IMG/VR virus record: IMGVR_UViG_3300025151_000116
Location: 1-38,061 of that record
Source: a virus
Length of the DNA stretch: 38,061 nucleotides
Direction: 5' to 3' (one strand)
The notes below the pieces were generated by a model, which was not told the DNA's origin, ran no database searches, and was given only the letters and a program-made list of their open reading frames with translations. Positions 18,543-37,200 of the stretch are shown in pieces; positions within the stretch are counted from its first letter, which is position 1; each line of letters begins with the position of its first letter. A program made the position numbers and the translations under genes.

Positions 18543-19973
18543 ATGGCACAATCAATTAATTTTGACCAATCTGGAACTACTGGTACAGTAAGTATTGGCG
18601 GTTCCACTTCACTAACACCTGCACCTGGCAAGTCTTTGCAAAACAGCAACTACTTGACTAACGCAGATTACAACTTTGCTCAGCAATATTTACCAGATTT
18701 ATATGAGCAAGAATTTGAACGTTACGGAAATCGTTCTGTAGCTTCTTTCTTGCGTATGGTAGGAGCTGAGATTCCTTCTTCTTCTGATTTAATCAAGTGG
18801 AGTGAGCAAGGAAGACTACACGTACAGGCTTCTGGTAGTATTACAGACGCAAATACTATTGCAGTAACAGGACATAGCTTCCGCACAAACCAGACTATTA
18901 TTATTTCTGGACCAGGCGGTGTTCAAGCAAAAGCCCTTATTACTGATGCTTCTGCAGCTGACAGTATCGATGTTGCTTTGTATCAAAACTTCAGCTTAGT
19001 AGAAGTTACTTCTGGAGGAGACGCTTTATATACTGCAGATGACGATGTGACAATCTTCGTTTATGGTTCTGAATTCCGTAAAGGAGATAATGGCATGTCT
19101 GGTTCTCTTGAAGCTGATTTCGAAGCTAAAGAAAACAACCCAATTATCATCAAAGACAAGTACGAAGTATCTGGTTCTGAGATGGCACACGTTGGGTGGG
19201 TAGAAGTATCTACTGAAAACGGAGCTTCTGGATACCTTTGGTATTTGAAATCAGAAAGCGAAACTCGCCTACGTTTCGAGGATTACCTTGAAACTTCTAT
19301 GATTGAAGGTGAGCCTGCTGGAGCTGGTTCTGGTGTAGCTGCTATTGATGGAGCTTCTGTTGGAGATGGAGCTGGGTACAGAGGTACTAAAGGTCTTTTC
19401 TTCGAAGTACAACAAAACGGTAACGTTACTTCTGGTACTATTGATTCTAGAGAAGATTTAGAAGCTTTAGCTAAAGTTCTTGACAAAGAAGGAGCTATTC
19501 AAGAAAACGTAATTTTTGCTAATCGTGCAACATCTTTTGATGTTGATAAAGTATTGGCTGCTCAAAACAACTCTGGAGCTTCTACAGCTTCTTACGGTTT
19601 GTTTGACAACGACGAAGATATGGCTTTAAACCTTGGGTTTACAGGATTCCGTATCGGATATGACTTCTACAAGTCTGACTGGAAATACTTAAACGATGCT
19701 ACTACTCGTGGTAACGTAGGCGGTATTGATGGTATCGTTGTACCTGCTGGTACTACTACAGTATACGACCAAGTACTTGGAGAGAACGCTAAGAGACCAT
19801 TCTTACACGTTCGTTACCGAGTATCTCCAACTGAAGACAGAAAGTACAAGTCTTGGGTTGTTGGTTCTGCTGGAGGAGCTATGACTAGCGACAAAGATGC
19901 AATGGAAGTTCACTTCTTGTCAGAGCGAGCGCTTTGTACAATGGGAGCTAACAACTTCATCTTGATGCAATAA
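18543..19973 (+). CDS. Major capsid protein, 476 aa
   Basis: The protein is encoded after the scaffold-like gene and before a strong terminator. It contains QQYLPDLYEQEFERYGNRSV, SFLRMVGAEIPSSSDLIKWS and EQGRLH, which resemble major capsid proteins of crAss-like and related phages with the HK97 fold. Following residues are Gly/Ala/Thr-rich beta segments and a C-terminal YRVSPTEDRKYKSWVVGSAG. Codons here are richer in C-ending and preferred forms (AAC, TTC, GAC) than in neighbouring genes, consistent with high expression. The expected role is to form the icosahedral shell. The start follows an A-rich leader (ACATTTTACAAAA) 27 nt after the scaffold stop. The fold is inferred from similarity only. 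Confidence 0.85.
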   Translation: MAQSINFDQSGTTGTVSIGGSTSLTPAPGKSLQNSNYLTNADYNFAQQYLPDLYEQEFERYGNRSVASFLRMVGAEIPSSSDLIKWSEQGRLHVQASGSITDANTIAVTGHSFRTNQTIIISGPGGVQAKALITDASAADSIDVALYQNFSLVEVTSGGDALYTADDDVTIFVYGSEFRKGDNGMSGSLEADFEAKENNPIIIKDKYEVSGSEMAHVGWVEVSTENGASGYLWYLKSESETRLRFEDYLETSMIEGEPAGAGSGVAAIDGASVGDGAGYRGTKGLFFEVQQNGNVTSGTIDSREDLEALAKVLDKEGAIQENVIFANRATSFDVDKVLAAQNNSGASTASYGLFDNDEDMALNLGFTGFRIGYDFYKSDWKYLNDATTRGNVGGIDGIVVPAGTTTVYDQVLGENAKRPFLHVRYRVSPTEDRKYKSWVVGSAGGAMTSDKDAMEVHFLSERALCTMGANNFILMQ

Positions 19974-19986
19974 TCATTATAGGAGA

Positions 19987-20021
19987 GAGGGGCATATAAT
20001 TGCCCCTCATCTTCTTTTTTT
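19987..20021 (+). terminator. Rho-independent terminator after the major capsid gene
   Basis: GAGGGGCA (19987-19994) and TGCCCCTC (20001-20008) form a perfect 8-bp stem around a six-base loop (TATAAT). It is followed by a T-rich run ending at 20021. It closes the terminase-to-capsid transcript 13 nt after the capsid stop. Confidence 0.92.
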
Positions 20022-20045
20022 AAATCAAATTAAATTATAAATAAA

Positions 20046-20819
20046 ATGGCAACAAAAACTGCAAAAAGTTTTGGGTACAACTCAATATTACCCGACCTAG
20101 AACAAAAGAATAGAATATTTATATTAACTGGAAATAAATCTCCTATTCGAATGATGATTCCTGTAAAACATACAGGAAGAAAACCTCTCACATATTTTGA
20201 CGGAAAACTAAATAGAGCATTAAGGTATGCTACTAATCAAATCACCCCTTTCGTGGATGAGCAAGATGGAATAGTTACTTTAGAGCCTATTACATTTGAA
20301 AATGGAACGCTAATCGTACCAGATTGGAATGTAAACCTTCAGAAGTTCTTACTTATACATCCTTTATATGGGAAGAAGTTTATTGAGCTCGATAAAGAGA
20401 AGAATGCTTCTGTAGAGGTTGAAAGCTTGTATTCGGAGCTTGATGCTCAAATAGCAGCTAAAAACCTTGACATCAACGACCTAGAGGCTATTGCTCGTGT
20501 TGTGATGAAAGGAAATGTTTCTACTTTAACCTCATCAGAGCTTAGACGTGATATGATTCTTTGGGCTAAGAAAAACCCTGGAGAGTTTATGAACTTAGTA
20601 GACGATGAAAATCTAAAATTAAGAAACCTAGCAGTAAGAGCTGTAGAGATGGGAGTATTACACATCAAGGGAGATAATAGAACTGTTACATGGGCAGATG
20701 ACAAGAACAATAAGATTATGGTTGCTCCATTCGGAGAGAACGTATACGGAGCTCTTGCTATGTTCTTTAAGACAGACGAAGGTCTTGATGTTTTACAAAA
20801 CATTACAAACAAATTGTAA
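20046..20819 (+). CDS. Conserved structural or head-completion protein, 257 aa
   Basis: The protein starts MATKTAKSFGYNSILPDLEQ and includes RKPLTYFDGKLNRALRYATN, LTSSELRRDMILWAKKNPGE and PFGENVYGALAMFFKTDEGL. It is soluble, mixed alpha/beta, without membrane segments or catalytic motifs. Its place between the major capsid gene and the ring-like connectors, with terminators on both sides, suggests a virion or head-assembly component. I recall similar proteins at this position in crAss-like and other Bacteroidetes phages but cannot assign a role. The start follows an A/T-rich leader (AATTATAAATAAA) 24 nt after the T-run of the first terminator. No obvious promoter is seen, so it probably depends on read-through. 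Confidence 0.7.
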   Translation: MATKTAKSFGYNSILPDLEQKNRIFILTGNKSPIRMMIPVKHTGRKPLTYFDGKLNRALRYATNQITPFVDEQDGIVTLEPITFENGTLIVPDWNVNLQKFLLIHPLYGKKFIELDKEKNASVEVESLYSELDAQIAAKNLDINDLEAIARVVMKGNVSTLTSSELRRDMILWAKKNPGEFMNLVDDENLKLRNLAVRAVEMGVLHIKGDNRTVTWADDKNNKIMVAPFGENVYGALAMFFKTDEGLDVLQNITNKL

Positions 20820-20846
20820 TTACATTGTATACACCGTGAAAGGGAG

Positions 20847-20878
20847 AGGGGTCACAATTTGTGACCTCTTTTTTTTTG
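20847..20878 (+). terminator. Rho-independent terminator after the 257-aa structural gene
   Basis: GGTCACA (20850-20856) pairs with TGTGACC (20860-20866) around ATT. The stem is extended outward by G-T, G-C and A-T pairs to about 10 bp, and is followed by a run of nine T (20869-20877). Confidence 0.92.
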
Positions 20879-20886
20879 TACTTTTG
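20858..20886 (+). promoter_or_regulatory. Bacteroidetes-type promoter overlapping the terminator
   Basis: TTTG (20858-20861) and TACTTTTG (20879-20886) match the -33 and -7 elements with a 17-nt spacer, the best-formed promoter in the window. The -33 element lies inside the terminator hairpin and the spacer contains its T-run. The ATG of the ring-protein gene follows 15 nt after the box. Confidence 0.7.
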
Positions 20887-20901
20887 TAGAAAATATATCC
20901 T

Positions 20902-21648
20902 ATGATAAATAGCGTAAGAAATACTGTTATGTTTTTGCTGAACAAAGATAACAGAGGATATGTGTCCCCATCTGAGTTTGATTATTTTGCAAAACAAGCG
21001 CAGCTTGAAATATTTGAGTCATATTTTAATGATTACTCAAAGGCTGTTGCTCTGCAAAACTCAAGAAAAAAAGCTTTGAATTATGGAGACACAGTTCAGC
21101 ACATTCAAAATAAGATAGATAAATTTTATGCTAACGCTACTTTGGCGTATCGTGACCAAGACGCAACAACACCTGGTGAAGAACAAGATTATTTTGATTT
21201 ACCCACAAATCTATACAAGTTAATAAATATTACTTACGGAGGAGGATTTGGTACAGAAACAACAATGGGTGGTGGCAGAATTGTTCAGCCAGTCGCACCA
21301 CACAAGTTTGATATGATTGTGAATAGCAATTTAACGCAGCCTACTGTTACATATCCAATATACGTTCGTAGTTCTGATATTATTTATGTTAGACCTTTAT
21401 CAATACAGTCTAACGTACAAGCAAATTATATTAGAAAGCCAGCTGACCCGCATTGGGGTTATCAAACAATAAGCTCTGACCCTGTGTATAACGCTTCTAG
21501 TTCTGTGGATTTTGAAATATCAGAAGAGGAGGAAACAGAGTTGGTTATCAAGATATGCAAGTATGCTGGACTTAGTATTAGAGAAGCTGACATTGTACAA
21601 TTAACATCTCAGCAGGAGCAGTTAGAGTACACTAAAGAAAATTCGTAA
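20902..21648 (+). CDS. Ring-like head-tail connector protein, 248 aa
   Basis: The N-terminus contains FLLNKDNRGYVSPSEFDYFA and KQAQLEIFESYFNDYSKAV, a segment I associate with the small connector or ring proteins beneath the portal in crAss-like and related short-tailed phages. The C-terminal half has a beta-rich part (YPIYVRSSDIIYVRPL) and an acidic helix (EISEEEETELVIKICKYAGL) resembling T7-gp11-type adaptor subunits. The expected role is to extend the portal and form the neck. It is the first gene after a terminator plus promoter and is followed by another connector-like gene after 3 nt. The precise ring assignment is uncertain. Confidence 0.7.
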   Translation: MINSVRNTVMFLLNKDNRGYVSPSEFDYFAKQAQLEIFESYFNDYSKAVALQNSRKKALNYGDTVQHIQNKIDKFYANATLAYRDQDATTPGEEQDYFDLPTNLYKLINITYGGGFGTETTMGGGRIVQPVAPHKFDMIVNSNLTQPTVTYPIYVRSSDIIYVRPLSIQSNVQANYIRKPADPHWGYQTISSDPVYNASSSVDFEISEEEETELVIKICKYAGLSIREADIVQLTSQQEQLEYTKENS

Positions 21649-21651
21649 CGT

Positions 21652-22539
21652 ATGCCAATAATCGGAACACCTATAGACCAAAGAGAATACTACCAAAATA
21701 GTGGTAATAACCCAACTTATGACAACTGGGGTACATATCAGTACTTGCTTTTACAGGACGTCATCAATAATTTTTTACTGACATATGTTGGAGACGACAA
21801 GGTTATAAACAAAATTGACAGAAATGAAGTTGTTTTTCATGCTAAGCGTGGACTTCAAGAATTACATTATGATGCCCTAAGAGAAATACGAGGGTTTGAA
21901 GCAGAGCTTCCTGACAACCTTAAGATGCACCTACCACACGACTTTGTAAGCGCCGTAAAGATATCTTACGTTGGTGATGATGGTACGACTAGACAGATAC
22001 CACAAAACTACAACACAGCGACTCCTACGAGTTATTTGCAAGACAATAGCGCTCAGAAAAACATCCTGATGGATAATAATGATAATGCTTTGACAGGAAC
22101 ACCAGTAATCGAAACAAACTGGTCTAACAAGTCAAATAAAGGTGTAGTTGAGCCTGATACGAATCTTTTAGGCAAGCGTTTTGGTATGGATACTGCATCA
22201 GCAAACCACAATGGAAGTTATGTGTTAGATAAAAACCAAGGATTCATACTTTTTAGTTCCGACTTGTCTGGAAAGAATATTGTTATTCAATATGTTTCTG
22301 ACGGCATGTATGCTCTTGCAGATGATGAAATAAAAGTTCATAAATTAGCAGAGAACTTTATGTACGACTACTTAGTGTCTAGTATATTGAAGCAAAAGTT
22401 TGGAGTACAAGAATACATTGTACGAAGAGCTCAAAAGCAAGCTTCAGCATCATTAAGAAATACAAAGATTCGATTAAATTCAATAAAACTAGGCGAGCTT
22501 ACTCAAATTCTACGAGGAAGAGATAAGTGGATAAAATAG
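21652..22539 (+). CDS. Second ring-like head-tail connector protein, 295 aa
   Basis: The protein includes GTYQYLLLQDVINNFLLTYV, VVFHAKRGLQELHYDALREI and DNLKMHLPHDFVSAVKISYV. I recognise this arrangement from tail-tubular or ring proteins of crAss-like and other Bacteroidetes phages. A beta-rich middle and a C-terminal helical segment (AENFMYDYLVSSILKQKF, then RRAQKQASASLRNTKIRLNS) follow. Together with the preceding gene it probably forms stacked rings between portal and muzzle. The stop is TAG and the large muzzle-like gene starts one base later, supporting joint translation and assembly. There is no enzymatic motif. Confidence 0.72.
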   Translation: MPIIGTPIDQREYYQNSGNNPTYDNWGTYQYLLLQDVINNFLLTYVGDDKVINKIDRNEVVFHAKRGLQELHYDALREIRGFEAELPDNLKMHLPHDFVSAVKISYVGDDGTTRQIPQNYNTATPTSYLQDNSAQKNILMDNNDNALTGTPVIETNWSNKSNKGVVEPDTNLLGKRFGMDTASANHNGSYVLDKNQGFILFSSDLSGKNIVIQYVSDGMYALADDEIKVHKLAENFMYDYLVSSILKQKFGVQEYIVRRAQKQASASLRNTKIRLNSIKLGELTQILRGRDKWIK

Positions 22540-22540
22540 T

Positions 22541-25500
22541 ATGAAGATTAAAAACACATTTAGTACTGGTAAAATGAATAAAGACGTTGATGAACGTCTT
22601 ATTCAAAATGGCGAGTTTATTGACGCAAACAACATACGTATTTTAAATACAGCTGGTTCTGATGCTGGCGCTATTGAAAACGAAAAAGGAAACGTCAAAC
22701 TAACCAACCTAGCTATATCTAACAACCCAGAATGTATCGGCTCTGTTGCAGATGAAGCAGAGGAAAAGATATATTGGTTTATCGTTAATGACGATGGATT
22801 TTCATACATATATGAGTATGATAGAACAAATGAGATTACATCTCAGGTTTTGGCAGACGAAAGAGTTGGTGACCAACAGGTACTAGGGTTTAGTAAAGAT
22901 TATAAAATTACTGGTGTAAATGTAGTATATAACGCATCAAAAAAATCAAAACTTTTGTTGTTTACAGATGGCCTTAACCAGCCTAGAATGATTGACATCA
23001 AGAGGTCAAAGTCATATGGACTGAATAATTTTTACGAAGATGATATTTCTTTGTATAAGAAACCTCCTTTTGAAGCTCCTTTAGTTACGCCATATAATAC
23101 AGGTTTTGCAACAGAAAATGCTGTAAAAGAAAATTTTTTCGCTTTTGCTACTAGATATAGATATTTAGATGGAGGTTATTCCGCTTGTTCTTCTTTCACT
23201 TATTTTAAATTTTCACCAAAGAAATTTGAAATAGACTATGCGTCTATGGAAAACAAAGGAATGGAGAACGTTTTTAATGGGTATAAAATAAATTACAATA
23301 GTGGAGACCACAGGGTCACAGATATTCAATTATTATTTAAATATCCAACGGAGCCAACAATATATATAATAGACAATATAAATAAAAAAGAAAGCTCCAT
23401 ATTAGACAATACCACTCAGTCGTATGATTTTGCTAATAAAAAAATATACAAAACACTTCCTCAGGATGAAGTTTTTAGGACTTTTGATGATGTTCCTTTA
23501 ACAGCAAAAGCACAGGACTTTATTAACGATAGACTTGTTTTAGGAAACACAACTAGTCAGTATGATTTAGTAGAAGAAGAGGGTTCAGATGATTTAATTA
23601 AAATAAATTATACTGTTTCTTTAGAATCAAAGTCACAAGAAGGAGATGTTGTTGAGGGCTCTAGGACTTCTAATAACACTAAGATAACTTTTGATTTTGA
23701 TGGGTATGAGTTAAACGAAGGATTTACTATATCTGTGTTTTTACAATTAGAGTCTGATGAAGCAGGTACGGCGCCTAATGAGTATTTTGGTGGAGAAGGA
23801 GATGTTCAAGGTGCATTTGTTTTATCTCAAGATTATACATCTTTTGATGATATAACTGAGTCTAATGAGTTTACAGACTTCCTGACATCTCTTAGTGGTT
23901 CTTTTGCAGCAGTAGTAAATACAACTCCTCCAGATGATGTTACTGATACAGAATATGGTGACTTTGTTTTGGATTCTAACACAGAAACATCTTTTACCCT
24001 TATAGCACCTATACTAACACATACAGTAGATAATACTCCAGCTATTCCCGATGATGATGATTTCACAGATATAGATGAGCCATATAAATTTAAAACAGAC
24101 AACGTTGCAACTATAAGGGATGATTCTAGTAATGTTTCTTTAAAATCTCTAAGAAGTTATGAAGTCGGCCTTGTTTATTTAGACTCTTATGGAAGATATT
24201 CTAGTGTTTTGCTTCCAAAAGAATCTTTAGGCGAGGCTTCTAGTGAGGTTTTTGTTCCTATACAAAACAGTATAGATATAAATAAACTTAAAGTATCTAT
24301 ATCTAATCCTCCTCCTTTTTGGGCTAATAGGTATAAGTATTTTGTAAAAGTAAACAAAACACCTCATTTTACTTTGTATTCAACAATTTTTTATGAAGAT
24401 GACCTATATAGATGGGTTTTACTTCAGGGTGCAAATCTAGGAAAAATAGAGGCTGGTACGATTTTAATTGTAAAATCAGATGATGATGGACCATTGGACC
24501 AAGAAGTAAAATGTAAAGTTCTTGAGGTTACGACTAAAAATGCAGCTGACGAGCCACAAGGAGAAAAAGGATGGATACCAGGTAATGATATACTTGAGAA
24601 GTCAGGTACTTATATGAAAATAAGGCCATTTAATTTCAACATGGACTTCAATCCTAATAATTTTTTAAATTACCATAAAAGAAGTAAAAAAAGCAGGACC
24701 AGCAGCGGCTATAACAACCATTTTCTTCCACATTACCAACTTCCAGGTTTTGGAGGTATTTTCGGTTATGGACAATTTGACAAAGGAGTTTTGCAGATAT
24801 TAGATGAAGAAAGTGATACATATATTAATCAAGACTTAAACACTGGTTCAAAAATAAAATTAGACTTTAAGTACGAAGAAATAGATGATAATTTTAATTG
24901 GAACGGAGAATTTACTGTAAACGGAAACTACACTTGTTCAGCTAATTCACCAACAAGCCAAAATACATTTGTTCAGTGGATGGAAAACGAAACTCCGTTT
25001 CCTAGTGAGGAGCTCTCTTACAGGGGAGACGCGACAGCCGTTCGTTTTAGAATAGAATCTTTTCAGCAAAATCCTAGTGATGAATTTGTATTGACTTTTT
25101 ATAAAGCAGATGCAACAAGAGATTTAACTTTGTTGAACGTTACAACAACAGAAAGAACAAGTGGATTGGAAAGGTCATATCTGACATCTACTATAGATAT
25201 AACTCTTACTAACGGGGTTTTGATATTCGAAACAGAACCAACAGAAATAGATGATGAGGTTTATTATGAAACAGAAGAAACTTTTTTAATAGAAAACGGT
25301 TTACACAAAGGAAATGAACAAGACCAAACAGCTACAGACCCCGCTATCTCTATACTTGGGTTTGGAAACTGTTTTAGTTTTGGAAATGGAGCTGAATCAA
25401 TAAGAGTTAAAGATGATAGATTTAAACCTCTTTTTGACATAAAATCTAGACCGAACATCGCTATTGTAGAAGGTTATGAAAGAAAAAAAGACACAAACAA

Positions 25501-27823
25501 AATAATTTATAGCGGTTCTTTTAATGAAAACACAGGGTACAACACTTTGAATGAATTTAACTCTAGTAGGGGTATTACCAAGTACATGGACATGAAATAT
25601 GGTTCTGTGCAAAAATTATTTGCTAGAGAATCTGATTTAATTGTTTTTCAAGAAGATAGGGTTTCTAAAGTATTGTATGGAAAAAATATTTTAAACAGCC
25701 CTGATGGAAGTGGTAGTATATCTCAGATAGAAAAAGTTTTAGGTCAAGATGTTCCTTTTTCTGGGGAATATGGTATATCTACAGACCCTGAGTCTTTTGC
25801 CTTTTACGAGGGAAGAATGTACTTTGCAGATGCTAATAGAGGTGCGGTCTTAAGACTTGGAGCAGACGGAATAACACCAATATCTTATGCAGGAATGAAA
25901 GCTTTCTTTAAGAGAGAGTTATATAACAACAAAGGTAACTGGAATATAGGAGGATTTGACCCTAAATTCCATCAGTATGTACTTACTATAGGCAGCGAAC
26001 AAAAACCTGCAGACCCATTAGAATTAGATTGTGCTTCTAATTTTGTTAGAACAATTACCTCAGCATTTAATTATGATTTAAATCTTGGTTCTTTTCCAGG
26101 AACAGCTACAATAGCATATACAACATCTAGTTCTATAGATATTGTCATAGTTTATAATGGTAATACATATACAAACAGCGGATTAACAGGAACAGGTAGC
26201 GTGACTTTCCCTGTAACCTCAACAGACCTTGAAACTACAAATATTGCTGATGTTACTATAACACCTGCATCTTCTGCTCAAGTAACAATAACACACACTT
26301 GTCCAGAGCCAGAAACACTTGAAATTATATTAGTTGTTGTAAATGACGAGGGAGAAGCTAATGAAACTATCATCAACAGATATAAGCATGATGGTGCTAA
26401 TGGAAATATTTATAATTCTGATTTAGATGTTTTTGATGCTGACGAACTAACTAGATATGAGGTTATATCTGGTTTTATGGGAACTGATATTATTCCAGAT
26501 AACGGGGATACTGTAACACTTTCTTCTCTGAAGCAAACTGGAGTTCATACAGGTGACTTCAATGACTGTAATAGTTTGGGTTATTTAGTTTCTGCTGCAA
26601 GCGGACTAACTGTTCAAAATATTATAGACCAAGCTACCTATCCATCAGTTACAGGACAAACACTATCTAATGGTGATGAAGAAAATACTGTTTCATTTAC
26701 TTTTAATAGAAGTAATACAAGTCAAAAGCTATACTTAGTATGGAATTATATAGATACATTGCCTGTTTTAGTTGATGACTCTGTAACAGGAATTACTAAT
26801 GGTGGAAGTAGTACAATCAATGTTATTGCTAACGACACAATTCCTTCACCATACACTATTACAATAGGAACGCAGCCAACTAACGGAACTGCTGTTGTTA
26901 ATGCTGATAACACCATCACATATACTCACACAGCAGAGGCTGGCTTAGATGATAGTTTTACATATATTGTAGATAGAGGGGGAACATGTACCGCAGAGGC
27001 AACAGTAACTACGCAAGCACTAGCTATTAGTGTTGATACATATATTTACATATATTTTGATGCTTCAGGCTCCATGAATACTACTCTTTCAGAACTTCAA
27101 ACTTTGCGTACTGGAGGTTTAAAATCAACGCTTCAAGATTTATATGCAACAGGAGGTACAGAGTCAAGTGGTAATACAGACCCAGCAACCAATGGTAGTG
27201 ATGAGTATGATAATAAGGTTTCTATTGTTTATAATCCAACTCCCACAGGAAGTTGGTCAAATGAACGTACCCTTGCTGCTCTTTCTGATAACGATGTTAA
27301 TGATTTCTTAGCTACAAGCACACACAATGCATTTCCCACAGACGCATCTAATGTTATAGTAATGGTTTTCCAAGATGAATCTTCTCCATATAACGCTGAA
27401 GGTTCAGGGACTACTGCTCCAACACCCACAACCGATTACAACACAGACATTGCCGATTTAAGGTCAAGAGTTAGCTCTCTAAACAGCACAAACTCTGGTT
27501 TTTATAGAGGGGTTGTGTTTAATGTTACTGGATATGCACAATTTGGCGCTTTTTTACAGGCTGTAGAAAACGGCACAGGAAGTTATAGTGGTACATCTGG
27601 GTTGAGCGATTTAATGGGAGGTACTAATCCAACATTCTCATTTGCTTATAGTGTTGAAGAGAGTGATAATAACGATGCAAATGCACCATTTAAACCAGGC
27701 TCCACAACTGACAGGTTTGACCAATGGCAATATTATTACCTATGGCATATAACAAATGAACTTAATTTTCTAGGTTTCACTCCAGATGGTGTAACTTGGC
27801 CAGTAATAGAAGACGACGATTAA
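22541..27823 (+). CDS. Large muzzle-like tail protein with cadherin-like and VWA-like domains, 1760 aa
   Basis: Residues 1-60 (FSTGKMNKDVDERLIQNGEF, then IDANNIRI, GAIENEKGN) match the start of tail-stabilisation or muzzle proteins of short-tailed phages, the beta-rich tail tip below the rings. The body to about residue 1150 fits that role (FARESDLIVFQEDRVSKVLY). After it come added domains: a beta-sandwich region, a cadherin/VCBS-like domain at about 1408-1490 (VDDSVTGI, NVIANDT, DDSFTYIVDRGG) and a C-terminal von Willebrand A-like domain from about 1497. The latter opens with YIYIYFDASGSMNTTLSEL, which contains the metal-site motif D-x-S-x-S (Asp1507, Ser1509, Ser1511), followed by NVIVMVFQDESSPYN. 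The added part may bind host surface ligands in a metal-dependent way. The next gene starts 1 nt after the stop. Confidence 0.8.
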   Translation: MKIKNTFSTGKMNKDVDERLIQNGEFIDANNIRILNTAGSDAGAIENEKGNVKLTNLAISNNPECIGSVADEAEEKIYWFIVNDDGFSYIYEYDRTNEITSQVLADERVGDQQVLGFSKDYKITGVNVVYNASKKSKLLLFTDGLNQPRMIDIKRSKSYGLNNFYEDDISLYKKPPFEAPLVTPYNTGFATENAVKENFFAFATRYRYLDGGYSACSSFTYFKFSPKKFEIDYASMENKGMENVFNGYKINYNSGDHRVTDIQLLFKYPTEPTIYIIDNINKKESSILDNTTQSYDFANKKIYKTLPQDEVFRTFDDVPLTAKAQDFINDRLVLGNTTSQYDLVEEEGSDDLIKINYTVSLESKSQEGDVVEGSRTSNNTKITFDFDGYELNEGFTISVFLQLESDEAGTAPNEYFGGEGDVQGAFVLSQDYTSFDDITESNEFTDFLTSLSGSFAAVVNTTPPDDVTDTEYGDFVLDSNTETSFTLIAPILTHTVDNTPAIPDDDDFTDIDEPYKFKTDNVATIRDDSSNVSLKSLRSYEVGLVYLDSYGRYSSVLLPKESLGEASSEVFVPIQNSIDINKLKVSISNPPPFWANRYKYFVKVNKTPHFTLYSTIFYEDDLYRWVLLQGANLGKIEAGTILIVKSDDDGPLDQEVKCKVLEVTTKNAADEPQGEKGWIPGNDILEKSGTYMKIRPFNFNMDFNPNNFLNYHKRSKKSRTSSGYNNHFLPHYQLPGFGGIFGYGQFDKGVLQILDEESDTYINQDLNTGSKIKLDFKYEEIDDNFNWNGEFTVNGNYTCSANSPTSQNTFVQWMENETPFPSEELSYRGDATAVRFRIESFQQNPSDEFVLTFYKADATRDLTLLNVTTTERTSGLERSYLTSTIDITLTNGVLIFETEPTEIDDEVYYETEETFLIENGLHKGNEQDQTATDPAISILGFGNCFSFGNGAESIRVKDDRFKPLFDIKSRPNIAIVEGYERKKDTNKIIYSGSFNENTGYNTLNEFNSSRGITKYMDMKYGSVQKLFARESDLIVFQEDRVSKVLYGKNILNSPDGSGSISQIEKVLGQDVPFSGEYGISTDPESFAFYEGRMYFADANRGAVLRLGADGITPISYAGMKAFFKRELYNNKGNWNIGGFDPKFHQYVLTIGSEQKPADPLELDCASNFVRTITSAFNYDLNLGSFPGTATIAYTTSSSIDIVIVYNGNTYTNSGLTGTGSVTFPVTSTDLETTNIADVTITPASSAQVTITHTCPEPETLEIILVVVNDEGEANETIINRYKHDGANGNIYNSDLDVFDADELTRYEVISGFMGTDIIPDNGDTVTLSSLKQTGVHTGDFNDCNSLGYLVSAASGLTVQNIIDQATYPSVTGQTLSNGDEENTVSFTFNRSNTSQKLYLVWNYIDTLPVLVDDSVTGITNGGSSTINVIANDTIPSPYTITIGTQPTNGTAVVNADNTITYTHTAEAGLDDSFTYIVDRGGTCTAEATVTTQALAISVDTYIYIYFDASGSMNTTLSELQTLRTGGLKSTLQDLYATGGTESSGNTDPATNGSDEYDNKVSIVYNPTPTGSWSNERTLAALSDNDVNDFLATSTHNAFPTDASNVIVMVFQDESSPYNAEGSGTTAPTPTTDYNTDIADLRSRVSSLNSTNSGFYRGVVFNVTGYAQFGAFLQAVENGTGSYSGTSGLSDLMGGTNPTFSFAYSVEESDNNDANAPFKPGSTTDRFDQWQYYYLWHITNELNFLGFTPDGVTWPVIEDDD

Positions 27824-27824
27824 T

Positions 27825-28586
27825 ATGGGACTAACATCAAACACAAGGACGATTACATGGGATGAGGTTTACAATGCGTGGACTTCATTCCATTCGTATG
27901 TCCCAGAGTGGACAGAACGACTAGGAACAAACTTTTACACGTTCAAGAATGGAGAGTTGTATATTCACGATGAAAACAGCTCTAGAACAAACTTCTACGG
28001 AACGACATATGGTTGCTCTGTAACGTTTTCTGCTAATCAAAACCCATCAGACATCAAGTTATTCAAAACTATTGGCCTTGAGAGCAATACAAGCTCTTGG
28101 GACGCTACAATAAATTCTGAAATGGAAGCTGGTAGAATAAACAATAAGTTTGAAGATAAAGAGGGAATTAGATATGGATATATAAGAAGAAACTCTGGTA
28201 ATGAGCTAGATTTCAATAAACTATCCATTTTAGGTATAGGAGAGCTACAGGCCATTCCTGGAGCTAATGAATATGAATTTTCAACTGACATTCCTAATCA
28301 AGTATCTGCAAACGCAGGTGATGGTGTCGGTGGGGATAAATTATTTTTTAACGATGGAAGCACAAAAGAAATAGGTGTTATTGACTCTTTTAGTGGAGGC
28401 ACTATAACTACTGTTTCTTCTATAAACACTCCATCTGTAAACGATTTCTGCTTTGTAGTTAAAAACTCAGAGTCAGAATCATATGGACTGCGTGGATATC
28501 ATGCAAAAATAAAACTTTACAATAATTCAACAAGCTTTGTAGAACTCTATGGTGCGAACTCTGAGGTCTTTAAGAGCTACATGTAA
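27825..28586 (+). CDS. Muzzle-associated tail protein, 253 aa
   Basis: The N-terminus contains TITWDEVYNAWTSFHSYVPE and NFYTFKNGELYIHDENS, followed by FYGTTYGCSVTFSANQNPSD and IKLFKTIGLES. From memory this block is the C-terminal part of the large tail-tip protein in many related phages; here it is a separate gene. The remainder is beta-rich (KLFFNDGSTKEIGVID, then RGYHAKIKLYNNSTSFVELY). It probably completes the muzzle or the tail tip together with the 1760-residue protein just upstream, whose stop is one base away. No enzymatic or membrane features are visible. Confidence 0.72.
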   Translation: MGLTSNTRTITWDEVYNAWTSFHSYVPEWTERLGTNFYTFKNGELYIHDENSSRTNFYGTTYGCSVTFSANQNPSDIKLFKTIGLESNTSSWDATINSEMEAGRINNKFEDKEGIRYGYIRRNSGNELDFNKLSILGIGELQAIPGANEYEFSTDIPNQVSANAGDGVGGDKLFFNDGSTKEIGVIDSFSGGTITTVSSINTPSVNDFCFVVKNSESESYGLRGYHAKIKLYNNSTSFVELYGANSEVFKSYM

Positions 28587-28600
28587 TTTTTGTATATTTG
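28569..28600 (+). promoter_or_regulatory. Bacteroidetes-type promoter before the internal-protein genes
   Basis: TATATTTG at 28593-28600 matches TANNTTTG, with TTTA (28569-28572) 20 nt upstream as a weak -33 element. It lies 15 nt before the ATG at 28616, and most of it falls in the end of the preceding gene. Confidence 0.55.
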
Positions 28601-28615
28601 TAAAAACTAATTAAT

Positions 28616-29209
28616 ATGGCTATATTAAGTGCAATTGGAATGGGTATTGGAGCTATTGGCTCTGGTGTTCAGTTTTTTCAAGGAGCAAAAATGAAAAGAG
28701 AGGCTGAGGCTAAATTATCTCAATTCCGCCATCAAGAGCTAACAAATTTAGCTGAAAACTTAAAACCATCTTTAGAGGCGGAAAGACAAATGCAAGTTGC
28801 GGCTTCAAAACAAAGAGCTGCTGTTGTGGATGTTTCACAAGGCATGGACGCTGCTCAAGCGATGGGTATGATGGCTATGGGACTAGGTCAGACTCAAGAT
28901 ATGGAAATGAAAGCATTTTCAAGTATGATGGAAAAAGAGTATGAGGCCGACAAGATTAGAGTTCAAGAAGAACAGAACATGAGAGCTATGATTGAGAAGA
29001 GAAAAATGGAAGAACTTCAATCTCTTAAGGCTCAAAAAATGGCTGGAATGCAGATGCAATCTAGCGCAATAAAAGATTTAGGAAGTATGGCTTTAGGAGC
29101 TGGAATGGCTTCTGATAAATTAGCTGCTTCTCAAGGGAAAAGTACAAGTTTATTTGGAGCGGCTGGTAAGACAGCATCCTTTAATCCAGTAACTGGCGAA
29201 AAATACTAA
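28616..29209 (+). CDS. Small internal virion protein (T7 gp14-like by position), 197 aa
   Basis: The N-terminus (MAILSAIGMGIGAIGSGVQF) is Gly/Ala/Ile-rich and could insert in or span a membrane. The rest is a long Met/Gln/Glu/Lys-rich helix (AEAKLSQFRHQELTNLAENL, then MRAMIEKRKMEELQSLKAQK), and the end is small and polar. T7 gp14, the smallest ejected core protein, is also about 196 residues, with a hydrophobic N-terminal region and helical remainder, and lies upstream of two progressively larger ejected proteins, exactly as here. No sequence homology is claimed. The probable role is forming an outer-membrane pore or internal core during DNA injection. It is first after a promoter-like box. 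Confidence 0.6.
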   Translation: MAILSAIGMGIGAIGSGVQFFQGAKMKREAEAKLSQFRHQELTNLAENLKPSLEAERQMQVAASKQRAAVVDVSQGMDAAQAMGMMAMGLGQTQDMEMKAFSSMMEKEYEADKIRVQEEQNMRAMIEKRKMEELQSLKAQKMAGMQMQSSAIKDLGSMALGAGMASDKLAASQGKSTSLFGAAGKTASFNPVTGEKY

Positions 29210-29215
29210 TAAGAT

Positions 29216-31255
29216 ATGTCATACGCAGGAGGAACTGTAACACAACCAATACTAGGAGGGTTTGGAGATTTAGCAAATATGCTTCTTCAAGGCTCTTCTG
29301 AAATAGCTCAGATAAACTTAGAGATAGGAAAAAGAAGAGATAAGCAAGCGGCTGACTTAGCTCAGAGAATATCTCAAATTACTTCTACTGGTATTACCAC
29401 ACATGATAAGCTTATTCAATCAGGAGCAAGAGATGCTGTTAATGAGCTGTATAAAGCTTTTGAAGCTAATAAGAGAGGAGAAATATCTTTGAGCGAAGTG
29501 TCTGCTCGTTATTCTCAATTAGACTCTGAGATAGGAATTATGGCTAATATGGCTAAGTTGCAAGATGAAAACATAAAAAATGTAACTAAAGGTATTGAAG
29601 ATGAATCATTTGATTCAATATCTTTTGATTTTCAGAATAGTTTGTGGTACAACGACCCTAACTTAAGAAATGATATTTATCTTACTCCAGCTGTAGACTC
29701 CGAAGGGAATGTCAAGAAAAATCCAGACGGAAGCACTATGATGGTCAGAAGACCAGCTGTAGAAGGGCTTCAGTATAAAAGGGGTGATGATGGAATTCAG
29801 TATGTTGTAAAATACAAAGAAGTTCCTAAAAGAAATGAAAATGGCGATGTAATGTATGACGCAAATGGCGCACCTTTAACCACAAACAAGACGTTTATGC
29901 TGCCTTTGACAGAATACTTAAATCCAGCACTTAAAAAAGTAGACAGATACGACCTTGTAGATGACGTAAAAGGATTTCAGTCTATTACAGGTAAACAATT
30001 TTCTTATGTAGATAAAAACACTGGAGAGATTACAGAAATGCCTTATAGTCAGCTGGGTCAAACTGCTAACGGCACTATAATTCAAGGATACACTATAGCT
30101 CCACAAAATTTTCCTAGTATGATTAGGAAAGTAGAAAGCTATATAGGGACTCCAAAAGATGATGAAGTTATATCTATACTTCATAGTTATATGGGTGCAA
30201 GAGCTGATTGGCAACCAGATTACGGATTACCAAGAAGTTCAGATGAGGTTAATAATGATAATATGATGGAAATTATGGTTAACAATGAGTTGACTATCAT
30301 TCCAAAATACTATGATATGAATGGCGACCCTCTACAGTTCACATCAGACCCTCTAGACCTTCAAACAGATGGTTCAGGAAAAATAATTATTACTGATGAG
30401 CAAAGAGAATTGGCAAAGGCGTTCAAAAGAGACCAAATATTAACTTCTTTCAACGTTGATTATAAAGATTTTAAAGAATATATAGACGGTAAAAAGACAA
30501 CAACAAAAATTCCTCCAAATTTTTCTTATAATCAAGCAGTTTACTCAAAATCGACGCCAACTGGAATGAACAATACAAACGCACTTGACTCTGATTATTT
30601 AAGCAATAGACTTAGTATAGCTATGATAGGTAGAGATGAGTTTAGTTCTGGTGTTTCAGCGTCGGCTAACGATACAAGAGATGCTATCGCCACACATAAT
30701 AATGGACAGATAGTATCACCAACTGCATTAGCAGGTGCAACAGGTCAAGTTAAAAATCTTTACAAAAGAAGAAACGATATTTTGGGAGGATTCTCTTTGG
30801 TTTATGCATCCACTCCTAGCAAGTCATCAGATGATATTAGGACAAAAATAATGCAAGATTTAAAAGGAACTACCGCTTCAGGTGGGGTTTTAAAATCTGT
30901 TCAAAACATATTGTTTATGGAGGAGGGTATTGTTGATGGTAAAAGAGCAGCGCCTCAAGTATTAATTGAGGGCACTATAGATTTAGCCACGACAGGAACT
31001 TCTGTAACAGACCCAACTGGACAAGGAACTGGCTCTATGGCTCAAAAACAATCTATTACAGTAAATGATTTTTATGTTGTTGATACAACAGAATTACCTA
31101 GTTTATATAATAAATTATGGACACAAGGAAAAGGGCCAAAATCATTTAAAACAATATTGAGTAATGCAGGGTATGATATAGATGCTAATTTTAATGGAGC
31201 TAAAAATCAATGGCTTTCTGCATTCGAGTATTACACTGACCAAATGAATAACTAA
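29216..31255 (+). CDS. Putative internal virion protein (T7 gp15-like by position), 679 aa
   Basis: The protein starts MSYAGGTVTQPILGGFGDLA and is helical at first (GKRRDKQAADLAQRISQITS), then carries mixed alpha/beta segments such as YDLVDDVKGFQSITGKQFSY and NEDGNV-like loop sequence. Its length is near T7 gp15 (747 residues). It sits between a short hydrophobic-start protein and a giant protein, the layout of an ejected internal-protein set. No protease, lysozyme or membrane motif is visible. The stop shares a base with the next ATG (TAATG), so it is translated together with the 2167-residue protein. The assignment is by position and size. Confidence 0.55.
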   Translation: MSYAGGTVTQPILGGFGDLANMLLQGSSEIAQINLEIGKRRDKQAADLAQRISQITSTGITTHDKLIQSGARDAVNELYKAFEANKRGEISLSEVSARYSQLDSEIGIMANMAKLQDENIKNVTKGIEDESFDSISFDFQNSLWYNDPNLRNDIYLTPAVDSEGNVKKNPDGSTMMVRRPAVEGLQYKRGDDGIQYVVKYKEVPKRNENGDVMYDANGAPLTTNKTFMLPLTEYLNPALKKVDRYDLVDDVKGFQSITGKQFSYVDKNTGEITEMPYSQLGQTANGTIIQGYTIAPQNFPSMIRKVESYIGTPKDDEVISILHSYMGARADWQPDYGLPRSSDEVNNDNMMEIMVNNELTIIPKYYDMNGDPLQFTSDPLDLQTDGSGKIIITDEQRELAKAFKRDQILTSFNVDYKDFKEYIDGKKTTTKIPPNFSYNQAVYSKSTPTGMNNTNALDSDYLSNRLSIAMIGRDEFSSGVSASANDTRDAIATHNNGQIVSPTALAGATGQVKNLYKRRNDILGGFSLVYASTPSKSSDDIRTKIMQDLKGTTASGGVLKSVQNILFMEEGIVDGKRAAPQVLIEGTIDLATTGTSVTDPTGQGTGSMAQKQSITVNDFYVVDTTELPSLYNKLWTQGKGPKSFKTILSNAGYDIDANFNGAKNQWLSAFEYYTDQMNN

Positions 31256-34200
31256 TGATTGTGAACACAGAAAATCAAACTGGAGTTTCAACTCCCGAAG
31301 AATTAAATACAGACATAGCTCCTATAGAGGAGGCTAGTGATGTTCAGGATGTTTCTAATACTGATGTAAAAACAGACCCAGACCCGCCTGTAAACAAGGA
31401 AAAGGTTTATTCTTATTTAGTGTCTTTATATGATAATGCTGGGAAAAGATATAATAAGGAGAAACTAAGACAAATATCTTCTACTTCAGACCTAAAATAC
31501 TGGGTGAATTGGGCTCATAAAAAAACAGGGCAACCTGCTTTAGATGACAATGCTTATTTAAAGCTATCGTCGTCTTGGACTGACAATCAAAAGGTTGAAA
31601 AAAAAAATCAAGTTCAGACTTTAAAAGACTCGTTTCAGGAAAATGCGATTGTACCAACGGAAGTAGATACGGATTCTCCATCCATATTGGAAAATATTCC
31701 TTCAACATCGGATTCTCAAGAGCCGACTAGCTTATCACAAATACCTAAGCCGAAAGTTGCAGAGTATTACACAGAGCAACTTAACGAAAATAATAGCATA
31801 CTTCCAGTAATAAAACAACTCCCAAGAGACTTGCTAACCATGTCAGAAGGAGATGCTGCTTTGGCTTTTAATAATATTCTTGGAGATTTTGGTTACAAAG
31901 CTATGGAAACAGATACTGGTTCTAACAGCTTGAAAGTTTTGAGGCCAGATGGAAGCTCTATGGAGATAAATTTAATGTCTGACCTTGGAGATAATATATT
32001 AGAACTTTTTAAGTCAGATGATTTCAACCAAAGACTAAATCTGAAACACAATAGATTTGTTATGGATTTATCTCTTGGTAAGCAAAACCTTGTACAGGTT
32101 ATGGCGGACCAATTTGACAGTAATCCTTATGGTGTTAATGAGGGAATGAAAGTCTTTACAAGACACATGAACAAGCCAGAGGAATCGGATTTACTTTTTC
32201 TCTCAAAAGCTCTTACTGGTCAAGAAAATGCAACAATATTTGACACAGGAGGCTCTTTCAATTCAGATTTATTTATGGCTGCTTTACAGCAGCTTAAAGG
32301 CAACCTAACGCCTGCTTATGATGAGATAGTATCATCTGAATCTAATTACCAACAGGAAGTTAGAATGGCTACACTGTCAAGTGTCAAGACAGATAACTTG
32401 CGTTTACCAGAAGACCCACAAGCCTCTCTTTCAGAAAAAGAAATTGAAAGCAACAATAGAGTAAAATCTACATATAGAAAAGTAGATGAAATATTAAAAA
32501 AATACGAAACTACTAAAAGAAACACATCAAAGATTCTAGGAAAGGCACTAAAAAGAAGTGTTGCTTTAGGTCAAATTGACTTGCATGACGAGAAAACTAT
32601 TGGTGGGCTAGTAAATAGTGGTCTTGACATGCTAGATATGCCACTTCCCTCTCTACTTATAAATGACAAGCAAGCTTCATTTCAGGATGTGTATGATTTA
32701 ATATCGAGACCTAAAGACCTAGGCTACATACAAAGAGGAGAAATAAAAGTTTCTATAGACGATACTGTTGATGTTGGGTTATTCAACGATTTGGTTTCAA
32801 AGTTAAAAAACACACAAGAAAGAAACACTGCTTTTTTAGATGAAGGAAATCCAAGACTAAATTCTTTTCTTAGAGGTATTCTAGATGTTCCTCAAGGTAT
32901 TTATGCTAACACATTAGACATATTAAATAATTTTGGTGTAAGCATTTCTGATACACTTGTTGGTCTTGGCATGAGTAGAGAAGTTGCTGATTTTGCAGTT
33001 TTTCAAGAAATGGGTGTAGTTGTTGGAGCTTCTAATTTTTCACCTGGTTTTGCTATAACAAAATACGCTTTACCATCAAAAAAAGATGTTGAAGAAGCGT
33101 TTGCATTACTCCCAGAATACAGTGGCTCTATATCAGACTCAAGAGGTATGGGTGAATTTTTGTCTTATGGAATGCAAGGATTTACATCATCAGTACCATA
33201 TATAGCTGCTTTTATGGCTCACCCAACTGTGGGTTTAGCTGTTACTTTCGGAAGCACCTATGGTGGTAGTATTGAGGAGGTTAGGGATGCAAAAGACGCT
33301 GCTAAAGAAGCACAGGCTTCAGGAGCTATACTAACAGAAAAACAAAAGGATTTGCTTAAAATGTCAGGCGCAGAAGCTAGAGCATATGCTTTTTCTAAGG
33401 CGGGTATTGAAACTGCTATTACAGCTGCATTTACTGGCCGTTATTTTCAGCAATTAAAACTTGCAAATGGATTCAAAAACTTACCAAAAACTCAAGAATC
33501 TGCTCAGCAACTATCAGACGCTTTTGCTAGAGCAAACAGAAAAGGGTTGGTTGCTTCTTTTGCTAAGTATACAGGATTAGACCCAAAAGTTATAGCAAAA
33601 GAATTACCTGAAGAACAATTTATAGCGTACACGGGTTACTTAACTGACGTGGCTTTTGGGTTGCAGGAATATGACTCAAAAACCGCTTTAAAATTAGCTT
33701 CTGATGCTGGATTAAACTCTTTATTCAGTAGTTCAGCGATGTCTGTTGGAGGTAAAATGATTACGCCAAGTACTACAGAAATTGCAAATCAAACCATAAA
33801 TAGAAAAATAACCCTTGACGGTGAAATGGAAGCTGTTAAAGACAAGCTTCAGTCGGATTTGATTGTTTCAGAACTTGAGTCTTCTGGAGTAGCTAAAAGC
33901 ACGCCAAAATTCAAAGCTGCTCTACAAATGCAACAAGATGCGGATAACCGCATAATGAATATTCAAAAAAGAAAAGAAGAGCTTGTAAATCAGATGAGCG
34001 TTAGTGACAAAAAAGCATTTTTACAAGGCATTGCTGATTTAGAAGGGTTTCAAGCACAGATTGAAGAAGGTGGTAAGCCAGAAGAAATAAACTCTACACA
34101 GAAACTTATAGATGAAAAGAAGGAGAAGATGAGAAGACTCCTTTCTAAATATCCTAGCGAGCTTAGTTACTATTTCTTACCAAAAGAAACACAAACAAAA

Positions 34201-37200
34201 CTCATCGACAGAGCTCTTAAAGAGCTTTCTGATGAAGCTGGTCCAGACGAAACATTTAGTCTTACAAGTGAAGATTCAAAGGTTATTGAGAGAGCATCTC
34301 AGATATATAAGAAAGATGTTTTGGAGCGAATGGTGGAGCCAGAAGAAAAAGTAGATGTTTCTGGATATTTTAATAATGTTACAGATTACTATGCAGAAAC
34401 CTCGCAACCAGCAGAAGCTGATTTTGACATTGATGCTGCTATATCTGCAATAGAACAAAAAGCAACTACAGAAAAGCCACCTTCTCAAACCGAACTAGAC
34501 TTAGAGCAAGAAGCAGAAGACAAACAAAAAGAATCTGATACTAGTGGTTTAGAGCAAGAAGATAAAGATAGAACAAACAATATTATTTCTAGAATCAAAG
34601 ACCTAAACATGTCAAAAGGTCTTTACAACTCCCTAAGCGAAAGTCAGAAGAAAATATTAAAGGGATTCCTTACAGATGTTCAAAATGGCAAAAGACCAAA
34701 GTTTGCGAGACTAGAAACTATTTTAGATGCACAACAAACGATACTTGAGCTGAAAGTTTTAAACAACAACAGCCCGATAAGTATTTTAGACAACCCAAAT
34801 GCCAACCTAAAAAATAAAAAGCCAGTTGATTTTGTCAAAGACTTGTACCCATATCTCAACAACCTAGGGAGAAAAGTAATGATGGGCGGTTCTGTTTTGA
34901 ACTCTAAAAACTTAATGACTTCGGATATATTTTTGGGTGCTATATTCAGAAACACAACAAAAGGCAAGCCATTTATAGACTTAGTCTCTTCAGCAAACAG
35001 AAGTGTTGCTTCAGCAATTAACACCTCGCAAGAGTTTATTAATCAAGACTCTAGCTTGTTTATAAATGAAATAAAAGCATACAACAAAGCTAATCCAAAA
35101 GCCAAAATGTCTACAGACCTAAGAAGTCTAGAAACCTCATATGAAATGCAAGTGTTGGCGCATTTGAGAAGACGTTCTGGAGAAATAGACCAAACAACTG
35201 GACTTGATACAGAGTTCCAAAGACAGAAAAACAGTCTATTGAAAGAGCTGCAGTTAAGAAAACAAGAGTATGAAAAAGATACATCTGACTCAACAAAAGA
35301 AGTTTTATATAGACAGCTTGAAGATACATTAAATCGACTAGGTGTTACAAACGCTCTATCGTATGATGATGTAAGTAAAAATGCAAAAGAACCAATAGTA
35401 AATGCTTTAAATAGACTATCTGATAGGTTTCCTCATGCAGAAGCTAAAAAAAGAAAGCAAGATTACGATGGACAGGACACTTACTTCGTAGATGGAACTT
35501 ATGTTCCTAGCTTTAGAAGAGGTGATGATGGTAACGAAAGGTCAGACAACGGAAACGGGGGAAAGAAATCAAACTACGGAACGATAGCTGGTGTTTTTCA
35601 AGATGTTGTAATGGATGACACACTAGAAAGTTCTAGATTATCTTTTGGCAACTACTTTGAAAGAGCATATCAGCAAATGCAAGGTTCTTTTATAGACATG
35701 AACTCTAGAAGCGACTTTGAGCAGATAGATATGATTGTGAAGTCAGCTGATTTTGAGGGACTTTTCAAAAACACAAAGGAGTACGAAATGGTCAAAAAGT
35801 ATTTTGGCTCTAGAATGGATGTTTTCAACTTTATGATAAGCCAAGGTCAAAACGTAAACGTAGATTTTGGTTCTATGAACAAAGTAGTTCTAAATCCACT
35901 AAAAATGAAAAAGGCTGGAGCTGCATTCTACTCTACTCTTTCTGCAATAGGCCTTGCTAGACTTAACCAACCAGCATCTCAGTTTTATAGTGCAACATCT
36001 GGCACATTACCTATGTTAACTGACGCTAGAGCAAAAAACCACTTACAGTTGGCTAACGCAAGGTTTTTATATTCGATGGCTGGTGTTGGAAATGGTCAAA
36101 AAACTTCAAAATACGCACAATGGGCTAATAATATTATTGGAGGTGGTCATCTTCAAAACATATACAAAAACTCTAGAACTGGGCTTCGTAATGCTTTGAA
36201 AGCTGAGTTTGCTATAGGAGACAAAACAAAACTACCTCTTGATTACTATGTAAGTAAATTTAACATGGATAGTAGTGTTTTCTCTGACACAATGAGAGGA
36301 ATGAAGTATACTGTTGATTCTTTTTTAGACACGATTACTAAAAGCTCAGAGCTATCTTTGGAGTTCTTTTTAGCTAACGCAGATAGAGCTGCTGCTAACT
36401 CCGCTTTTGAAGCACACTACATGCAAAGTAGGATAGACCAAGGGGCTGTTATACCTAAGGATGTTGGTGCTTGGTGGGCTAAGGAAAACGAAAACCCTAA
36501 CACAGAAGCTATCGAGTACGCAGATAGAAGGATAGCGGAAACAATGAGGCAGACAGAGCCAACTTCTGAGGCTGAATTTTATGATGTAAACGCAAGTGAT
36601 AATACTAAGTTTGCACAAAGAACTGTTTTCCCTTGGGGTAAATTTATGTTGAATGCAAAAGCAAACTTCGCTAATCAATACGCTAGGATGATGGACCCAA
36701 ATCTTCCAGAGTTACAAAAGGAAGAAGCTAGGAGAAGAATGCAGGGTATTGTTAATGAGATTGCAGTTTTTAATGGAATAAAACTTACGACAAACAACAT
36801 AACTACAATGGGGTTGATTGGCGGTATAGTTTCGTTATTCGGTACAGATGAAGACGATATAAAGAGATATGAAGGCGGTATGACAAAGCTTATATCGGAC
36901 GCAATTGGAATAGAGGACCCTGATTACGCAGAAAGCTTATCTGACATGCCTAGAGCTCAAAGAGAAACTTTAGAAGGATTCAGAAACTCTATGATAGAAT
37001 CTACAAGTGGTATTGACAACACTTTGTTGGAGATATACAAGCATTCTATGGAGTATGAAAATAAATATAAAATCTCAGAAAATTACAGTGTTTTAGTTCA
37101 AACAGCAGTCGATGTTCTTCAGAATGCCTCTCCTATTCCTGCGCCAGAGCCTTTGTATGATTTGGCGTATATGGCAATGAATGAGATGTATGGAGATGAA

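Follow-up and report, generated by a model that had tools for sequence, protein, structure and literature searches.

A VWA-like domain with a MIDAS signature at the end of a split muzzle protein is a candidate exchangeable host-recognition module in marine crAss-related phages

The muzzle of phage phiCrAss001 is hexameric and sits at the tail tip, with a distal portion that is presumed to contact the host cell; the tail-tip protein gp44 of that phage carries the muzzle body and a C-terminal domain on a single chain (PMC10172136). Fast-evolving, modular surface-binding domains are known from the BACON-domain tail proteins of gut crAssphage (PMC6949934, PMC10136315), and the rapid change of these tail proteins has been described in gut crAss phages (PMC10136315). 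VWA domains have been reported in the tail fibers of extracellular contractile injection systems (eCIS), where they occur with phage-derived tail fibers and Ig-like domains (PMC12923769). The protein that we describe here resembles each of these and differs from each. Its body and C-terminal domain are homologous to those of gp44 but are encoded by two open reading frames (ORFs), and it has an appendage of about 600 residues with a VWA-like end that was not described for phiCrAss001 (PMC10172136). The BACON domain is a different type of domain, binds carbohydrate, and sits on another protein, and the eCIS domains belong to contractile injection systems rather than phage muzzles and are recognized by the Pfam VWA model. 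In the open-access literature, we found no paper joining the terms crAss-like, muzzle, and von Willebrand.

We analyzed a 38-kb virus record (IMGVR_UViG_3300025151_000116, positions 1 to 38,061; here called the window) from a marine, crAss-related phage. Its nearest named relatives are flavobacterial, namely, Cellulophaga phages phi18:3 (Pachyviridae) and phi40:1 (Pervagoviridae) and the Flavobacterium elemo phages. The ORF at 22541 to 27823 encodes 1760 amino acids; Pfam detected crAss_MUZ (PF25731) at its N terminus (E 2.5e-14), and PHROG 14478 covered residues 3 to 1514 (E 3.6e-278). By homology, this is a crAss-type muzzle protein. All muzzle features located here and below, as well as the crAss_MUZ_C ORF, are on the + strand. 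The crAss_MUZ homology and an alignment with the muzzles of phi18:3, phi40:1, and elemoF delimit a body of residues 1 to 1153 (22541 to 25999), which closes with GGFDPKFHQYVLTIG, the final conserved stretch ahead of the split. The appendage begins with residues 1154 to 1406 (26000 to 26758), which are missing from the alignment in phi40:1 and elemoF, where MUZ_C is fused, and for which no fold was identified. A Big_9 Ig-like domain follows as a spacer (residues 1407 to 1490, 26759 to 27010; PF17963, E 2.3e-9), and the VWA-like domain forms the C-terminal end (residues 1492 to 1760, 27014 to 27820). The separate crAss_MUZ_C ORF (27825 to 28586, 253 amino acids; PF25729, E 5.2e-11) begins 1 base past the muzzle stop codon in the junction sequence. 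Pfam finds both crAss_MUZ and crAss_MUZ_C among the window genes. Elsewhere in the window, an 1828-amino-acid ORF (4769 to 10255) ends with a Peptidase_S74 chaperone domain and is likely a tail spike or fiber, a competing receptor-binding protein; the principal role in receptor binding could fall to tail fiber or spike genes in other parts of the genome. A 2167-amino-acid ORF (31255 to 37758) closes the structural gene block.

The muzzle is fused in some relatives and split in others. In phi40:1 and elemoF, a single ORF covers the body and the MUZ_C that directly follows it, and in phi18:3, as in the window, the gene is split and MUZ_C is the next ORF. Both phi18:3 halves, gp114 and gp115, are annotated as virion proteins by tandem mass spectrometry, and an Ig-like stretch of this phage aligns with Big_9 in the appendage, but another C-terminal domain stands in the place of the VWA-like domain. 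The split site is a loop between QYVLTIG and TITWDEVYNAWTSF that is short in the fused homologues. By analogy with the description of phiCrAss001 (PMC10172136), we infer that this loop probably lies within the last beta-propeller blade; the larger muzzle half bears its appendage beyond this point.

Among 93 distinct muzzles, a set for which the domain itself served in part as the search query and which therefore gives no prevalence, the VWA-like domain was found in 34, and MUZ_C was a separate ORF in all 34. The other 59 comprised 15 fused muzzles, 16 that were split with adjacent ORFs, 16 that were split with intervening genes, and 12 with no MUZ_C found. Since many split muzzles have no VWA-like domain, we ruled out the idea that the domain caused the split. 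Where a muzzle tail lacks the domain, other modules take its place, some of which look BACON-like or Ig-like by eye; in three loci (L098, L105, and L130), the split-muzzle appendage has BACON-like repeats, judged by eye, at the position of the window's VWA-like domain. Six others (L112, L125, L129, L146, L152, and L154) have 1.9 to 4.7 kb of other genes between the body ORF and the MUZ_C ORF, showing that the split muzzle can be interrupted. The muzzle of Maribacter phage Panino (L069, 7001 to 10914) lies in two ORFs with a break inside the body, away from the usual split point, which is either real or a sequencing or annotation break.

The domain starts at 27014 with TYIYIYFDASGSMN and continues further on with NVIVMVFQDESS. 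The original prediction, made from the DNA sequence, described a C-terminal domain that opens with a hydrophobic strand and D-A-S-G-S and later has a central strand, and this description agrees with the sequence; the location at the C-terminal end also stands, while the size is 269 residues after Big_9 rather than the 260 claimed. The D-A-S-G-S motif (27059 to 27073), the presumed first segment of a metal ion-dependent adhesion site (MIDAS) of the DxSxS type, lies at the end of strand 1, with the strand at residues 9 to 15 and a helix from residue 19 in the AlphaFold2 (AF2) model. The Thr and Asp that would complete a MIDAS are both present as Thr86 of NERT (27269 to 27271) and Asp121 of FQDE (27374 to 27376), the latter after a strand at residues 113 to 120. 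In an alignment of 45 relatives that takes in distant fibers and cellular proteins, D16 and S20 were invariant (45/45), and position 18 was S in 40 and T in 5 (S/T in 45/45). Position 86 was T in 35 and S in 5 (T/S in 40/45), with A, P, G, or Q in five distant members, and D121 was kept in 44 of the 45. D16, G19, S20, M21, E84, D121, and E122 were invariant in the first alignment of 18 sequences. The five sequences with T18, called type B, are the same five that have S86; this joint change belongs to one clade and so is a single event, yet it fits two residues sharing a site. The MIDAS-like set is thus retained across the 45 sequences, and the neighboring loops are variable. A single-sequence search of IMG/VR returned 31 loci, and a profile search returned 61 viral loci encoding the domain. 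Because of these 61 loci and the conservation across the 45 representatives, the motif set is far from a chance occurrence.

AF2 predicted the window domain (18 sequences) with a pLDDT of 90.0 and a pTM of 0.90 and a compact 199-residue relative with a pLDDT of 93.7 and a pTM of 0.90. Both models run in the order strand, DxSxS, long helix, short strand, NERT loop with short helices, strand, FQDE, helix, strand, helix, strand, helix. This is an alternating beta/alpha fold with DxSxS directly past strand 1, so the structure-prediction check bears out a Rossmann-like alpha/beta fold with the motif at the junction of strand 1 and helix 1. The order of elements is that of the VWA fold, save for a missing or collapsed beta2-beta3 hairpin. 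The VWA sheet has six strands in the order 3-2-1-4-5-6 with an antiparallel beta3, whereas the models have five main strands and no clear beta3. Like the VWA or integrin I domain (PF00092 and relatives), the window domain has DxSxS ending strand 1, a downstream Thr and Asp, and alternating beta/alpha elements, and it presumably has in common with it an extracellular use in adhesion proteins. Unlike it, the window domain has no profile match and no visible beta2-beta3 hairpin, is carried on a phage tail, and has DE at the last metal Asp in place of the DG that is usual in VWA domains.

A Foldseek search of the PDB gave VWA chains near the top (TRAP, Rpn10, integrin beta, RGLG1, and ANTXR1), and a second search gave Rpn10 first (E 0.023, TM 0.41). 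These lists mix VWA domains with other Rossmann-like folds, and no PDB hit reached E 0.001, with VWA at E values of about 0.02 or worse and TM scores of about 0.3 to 0.44. Against viral models, Foldseek gave three strong matches, one of which (A0A7S9SU38, E 6.9e-9) is named "VWFA domain-containing" in UniProt. In an hhalign comparison with seven bacterial VWA domains, only 12 to 13 columns around DxSGSM aligned (P 3.5e-4, control 0.2), and global hhalign gave no useful alignment. The Pfam VWA model did not match the domain, NCBIfam gave no match for the phage domains, and PDB sequence searches with the single protein or a profile found nothing relevant; a snake venom metalloproteinase match (E 0.37) was discarded as chance. 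The original claim of a VWA domain with a MIDAS therefore holds for a MIDAS-like site on a Rossmann-like alpha/beta domain and not for formal VWA membership, given the lack of a Pfam match, a significant PDB fold match, and a beta3 hairpin. The description "VWA-like with MIDAS signature" is justified, and "member of Pfam VWA" is not. We consider it very probable that this is a VWA-like metal-site domain.

The last 269 residues of the window muzzle had no match in any named phage, and the same was true of four relatives of the domain. The domain also occurs outside muzzles. It ends a 1297-amino-acid protein with Big_9 in L031, a 116-kb contig with no muzzle match, and proteins of about 800 amino acids in L055 to L060, one of which (L059, 800 amino acids) lies in a contig with an intact muzzle elsewhere. 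In L052, it is encoded by a separate 417-amino-acid gene immediately downstream of an intact muzzle that has its MUZ_C, and in L061, it is on a further nonmuzzle protein. One 94-kb IMG/VR contig with the domain (L048, IMGVR_UViG_3300015263_000599) has kinase-DnaJ, aldolase, and ADP-ribosylglycohydrolase genes nearby and may be cellular rather than viral. The domain of L063 is identical to that of the window; the labels of two metagenome-assembled genomes (MAGs), Epsilonproteobacteria (L063) and Maricaulis (L064), were set aside as hosts because both contigs carry a phage muzzle and are likely misbinned.

Cellular homologues were found in 3 of 129 genomes of one Bacteroidota order, one of them a MAG titled Chitinophagaceae, and a phylum-wide search of Bacteroidota found the domain in 2 of 395 genomes. 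At least two cellular copies are chromosomal, one on an 816-kb contig and one with housekeeping genes. Two of the cellular proteins open with a lipoprotein-like signal (...LTAC and ...MTSC), two contain a Big_2 Ig domain, and the three cellular domains form one clade beside the compact phage forms in the domain tree. These data do not establish the proposal that the phage acquired the domain from host surface proteins: the lipoprotein-like homologues are rare, and the tree gives no direction. The cellular carriers of the VWA-like domain are L161 and L162 (G080 and G044) and L065. The first two have the lipoprotein-like starts and the pattern WCLEW...REIQxVxWS, which by eye resembles a Cys-Gln thioester; a reading of the cellular proteins as thioester adhesins (Cys ... 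IQxxxW by eye) was dropped when Pfam found no thioester domain. The MAG of L065 also encodes a degenerate relative without DxSxS (L163, 1162 to 2499), accompanied by fn3 and repeated PENFNV-like units.

We compared the window muzzle with that of a close relative, L018. Windowed amino acid identity was 92 to 100% along residues 1 to 1490 and then 38 to 66% across residues 1510 to 1762. At the DNA level, blastn gave 92.7% identity over 18993 to 27226, no match over 27227 to 27682, and 88.0% over 27683 to 31092, so the stretch of collapsed identity (27227 to 27682) lies inside the domain between flanks at 88 to 93%. Within the domain, strands 1, 4, and 5 (75 to 86%) and the last helix and tail (73 to 94%) are kept, and the T-loop (19%), residues 76 to 85 (30%), and residues 121 to 139 (37%) are divergent. 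Trees of the muzzle body (about 306 columns) and of the domain (about 277 columns) conflict. The type B domains (L016, L018, L019, L020, and L023) form a single clade in the domain tree (support 100/100), and the type B label requires at least four changes on the body tree, each of them imposed by supported branches. L014 is 35% identical to the window in the body and 67% identical in the domain, and its domain pairs with that of L003 (support 99/93). The presence of the domain requires seven changes on the body tree, five forced by well-supported branches. The comparison of muzzle homologues supports a lineage-specific domain. Because local divergence is combined with conflicting domain and body trees, we conclude that the domain is exchanged by recombination. 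Variation and exchange are localized relative to other virion genes, as looked for in a receptor-binding module, and in behaving like a swappable recognition module the domain supports this part of the original prediction.

Fast mutation in place, through strong selection or a diversity-generating retroelement, would explain the difference between the window and L018 with no domain exchange. As this explanation would have it, the divergence is confined to a short stretch with similarity still recognizable at both ends, but the type B clade is fully supported against the body tree, L014 has a near-window-type domain on a distant body, and neither a template repeat nor a YxDD reverse-transcriptase motif was found in the window, which is only part of the genome. 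We regard mutation in place as very unlikely. A role inside the virion is a different matter: the domain could be a docking or assembly element that binds a phage partner (the tail fiber hub, the MUZ_C half, or a fiber) and diversifies with it. The domain adjoins the MUZ_C gene, the two muzzle halves must associate, a separate MUZ_C ORF accompanies every one of the 34 domain-bearing muzzles, and the last 17 domain residues, 94% identical between the window and L018, could be a docking segment. Yet many split muzzles have other modules instead of the domain, the domain is found as well at the end of unrelated proteins and of lipoprotein-like proteins of cells, and it differs between phages whose flanking virion genes remain about 90% identical, which argues against a covarying neighbor as partner. 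Docking thus seems unlikely to be its function.

The DxSGS motif could also be a MIDAS look-alike on a Rossmann-like enzyme, for example, a surface-polysaccharide hydrolase, or on some other fold. Foldseek returned esterases and flavodoxin-like and dehydrogenase folds at E values similar to those of VWA, and the conserved acidic residues E84, E122, and D145 exceed a plain MIDAS. Against catalysis of the SGNH or cysteine type, the alignments have no invariant histidine or cysteine, and an SGNH hydrolase identity was dropped for the lack of the histidine. The ordered D-x-S-x-S ... T ... D is the MIDAS pattern, positions 18 (S to T) and 86 (T to S) change together in type B (in one clade, hence in one event), and the match to A0A7S9SU38 is structurally significant. 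An enzyme or other fold is, in our judgment, quite unlikely.

We therefore favor the reading that the 3' end of the muzzle gene is an exchangeable host-recognition module, which we consider probable. In this phage group, the muzzle would be made as two polypeptides split at the loop, and the new C terminus of the larger half would carry the appendage ending in the Ig spacer and the VWA-like domain. Through D16, S18, S20, T86, and D121, this domain probably coordinates a divalent metal, the spacer would expose it at the tail tip, and the variable loops around the metal site may bind a host-surface ligand. Exchange of the domain by recombination would change binding, and the muzzle may pass ligand contact to the gate, so that binding would help to trigger gate opening. 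A broader proposal is tentative and has less than even prospects: that marine crAss-related phages have a socket for recognition-domain swaps, in which a break in a loop, probably one in the last propeller blade, divides the muzzle chain, two proteins together rebuild it, and a C terminus is freed at the tail tip. One swapped head would then be a new minimal MIDAS-domain family, common to tail fibers of other phages and Bacteroidota surface lipoproteins, giving metal-dependent, integrin-like receptor binding.

The crAss-like muzzle is believed to make contact with the cell and to open the gate. Its specificity may reside in a small, separable metal-site domain, a concrete candidate for the determinant because near-identical phages swap it, and naturally occurring pairs, the window and L018 among them, mark the exact candidate segment. 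If the proposal is true, it would extend MIDAS-type adhesion to phage tail tips.
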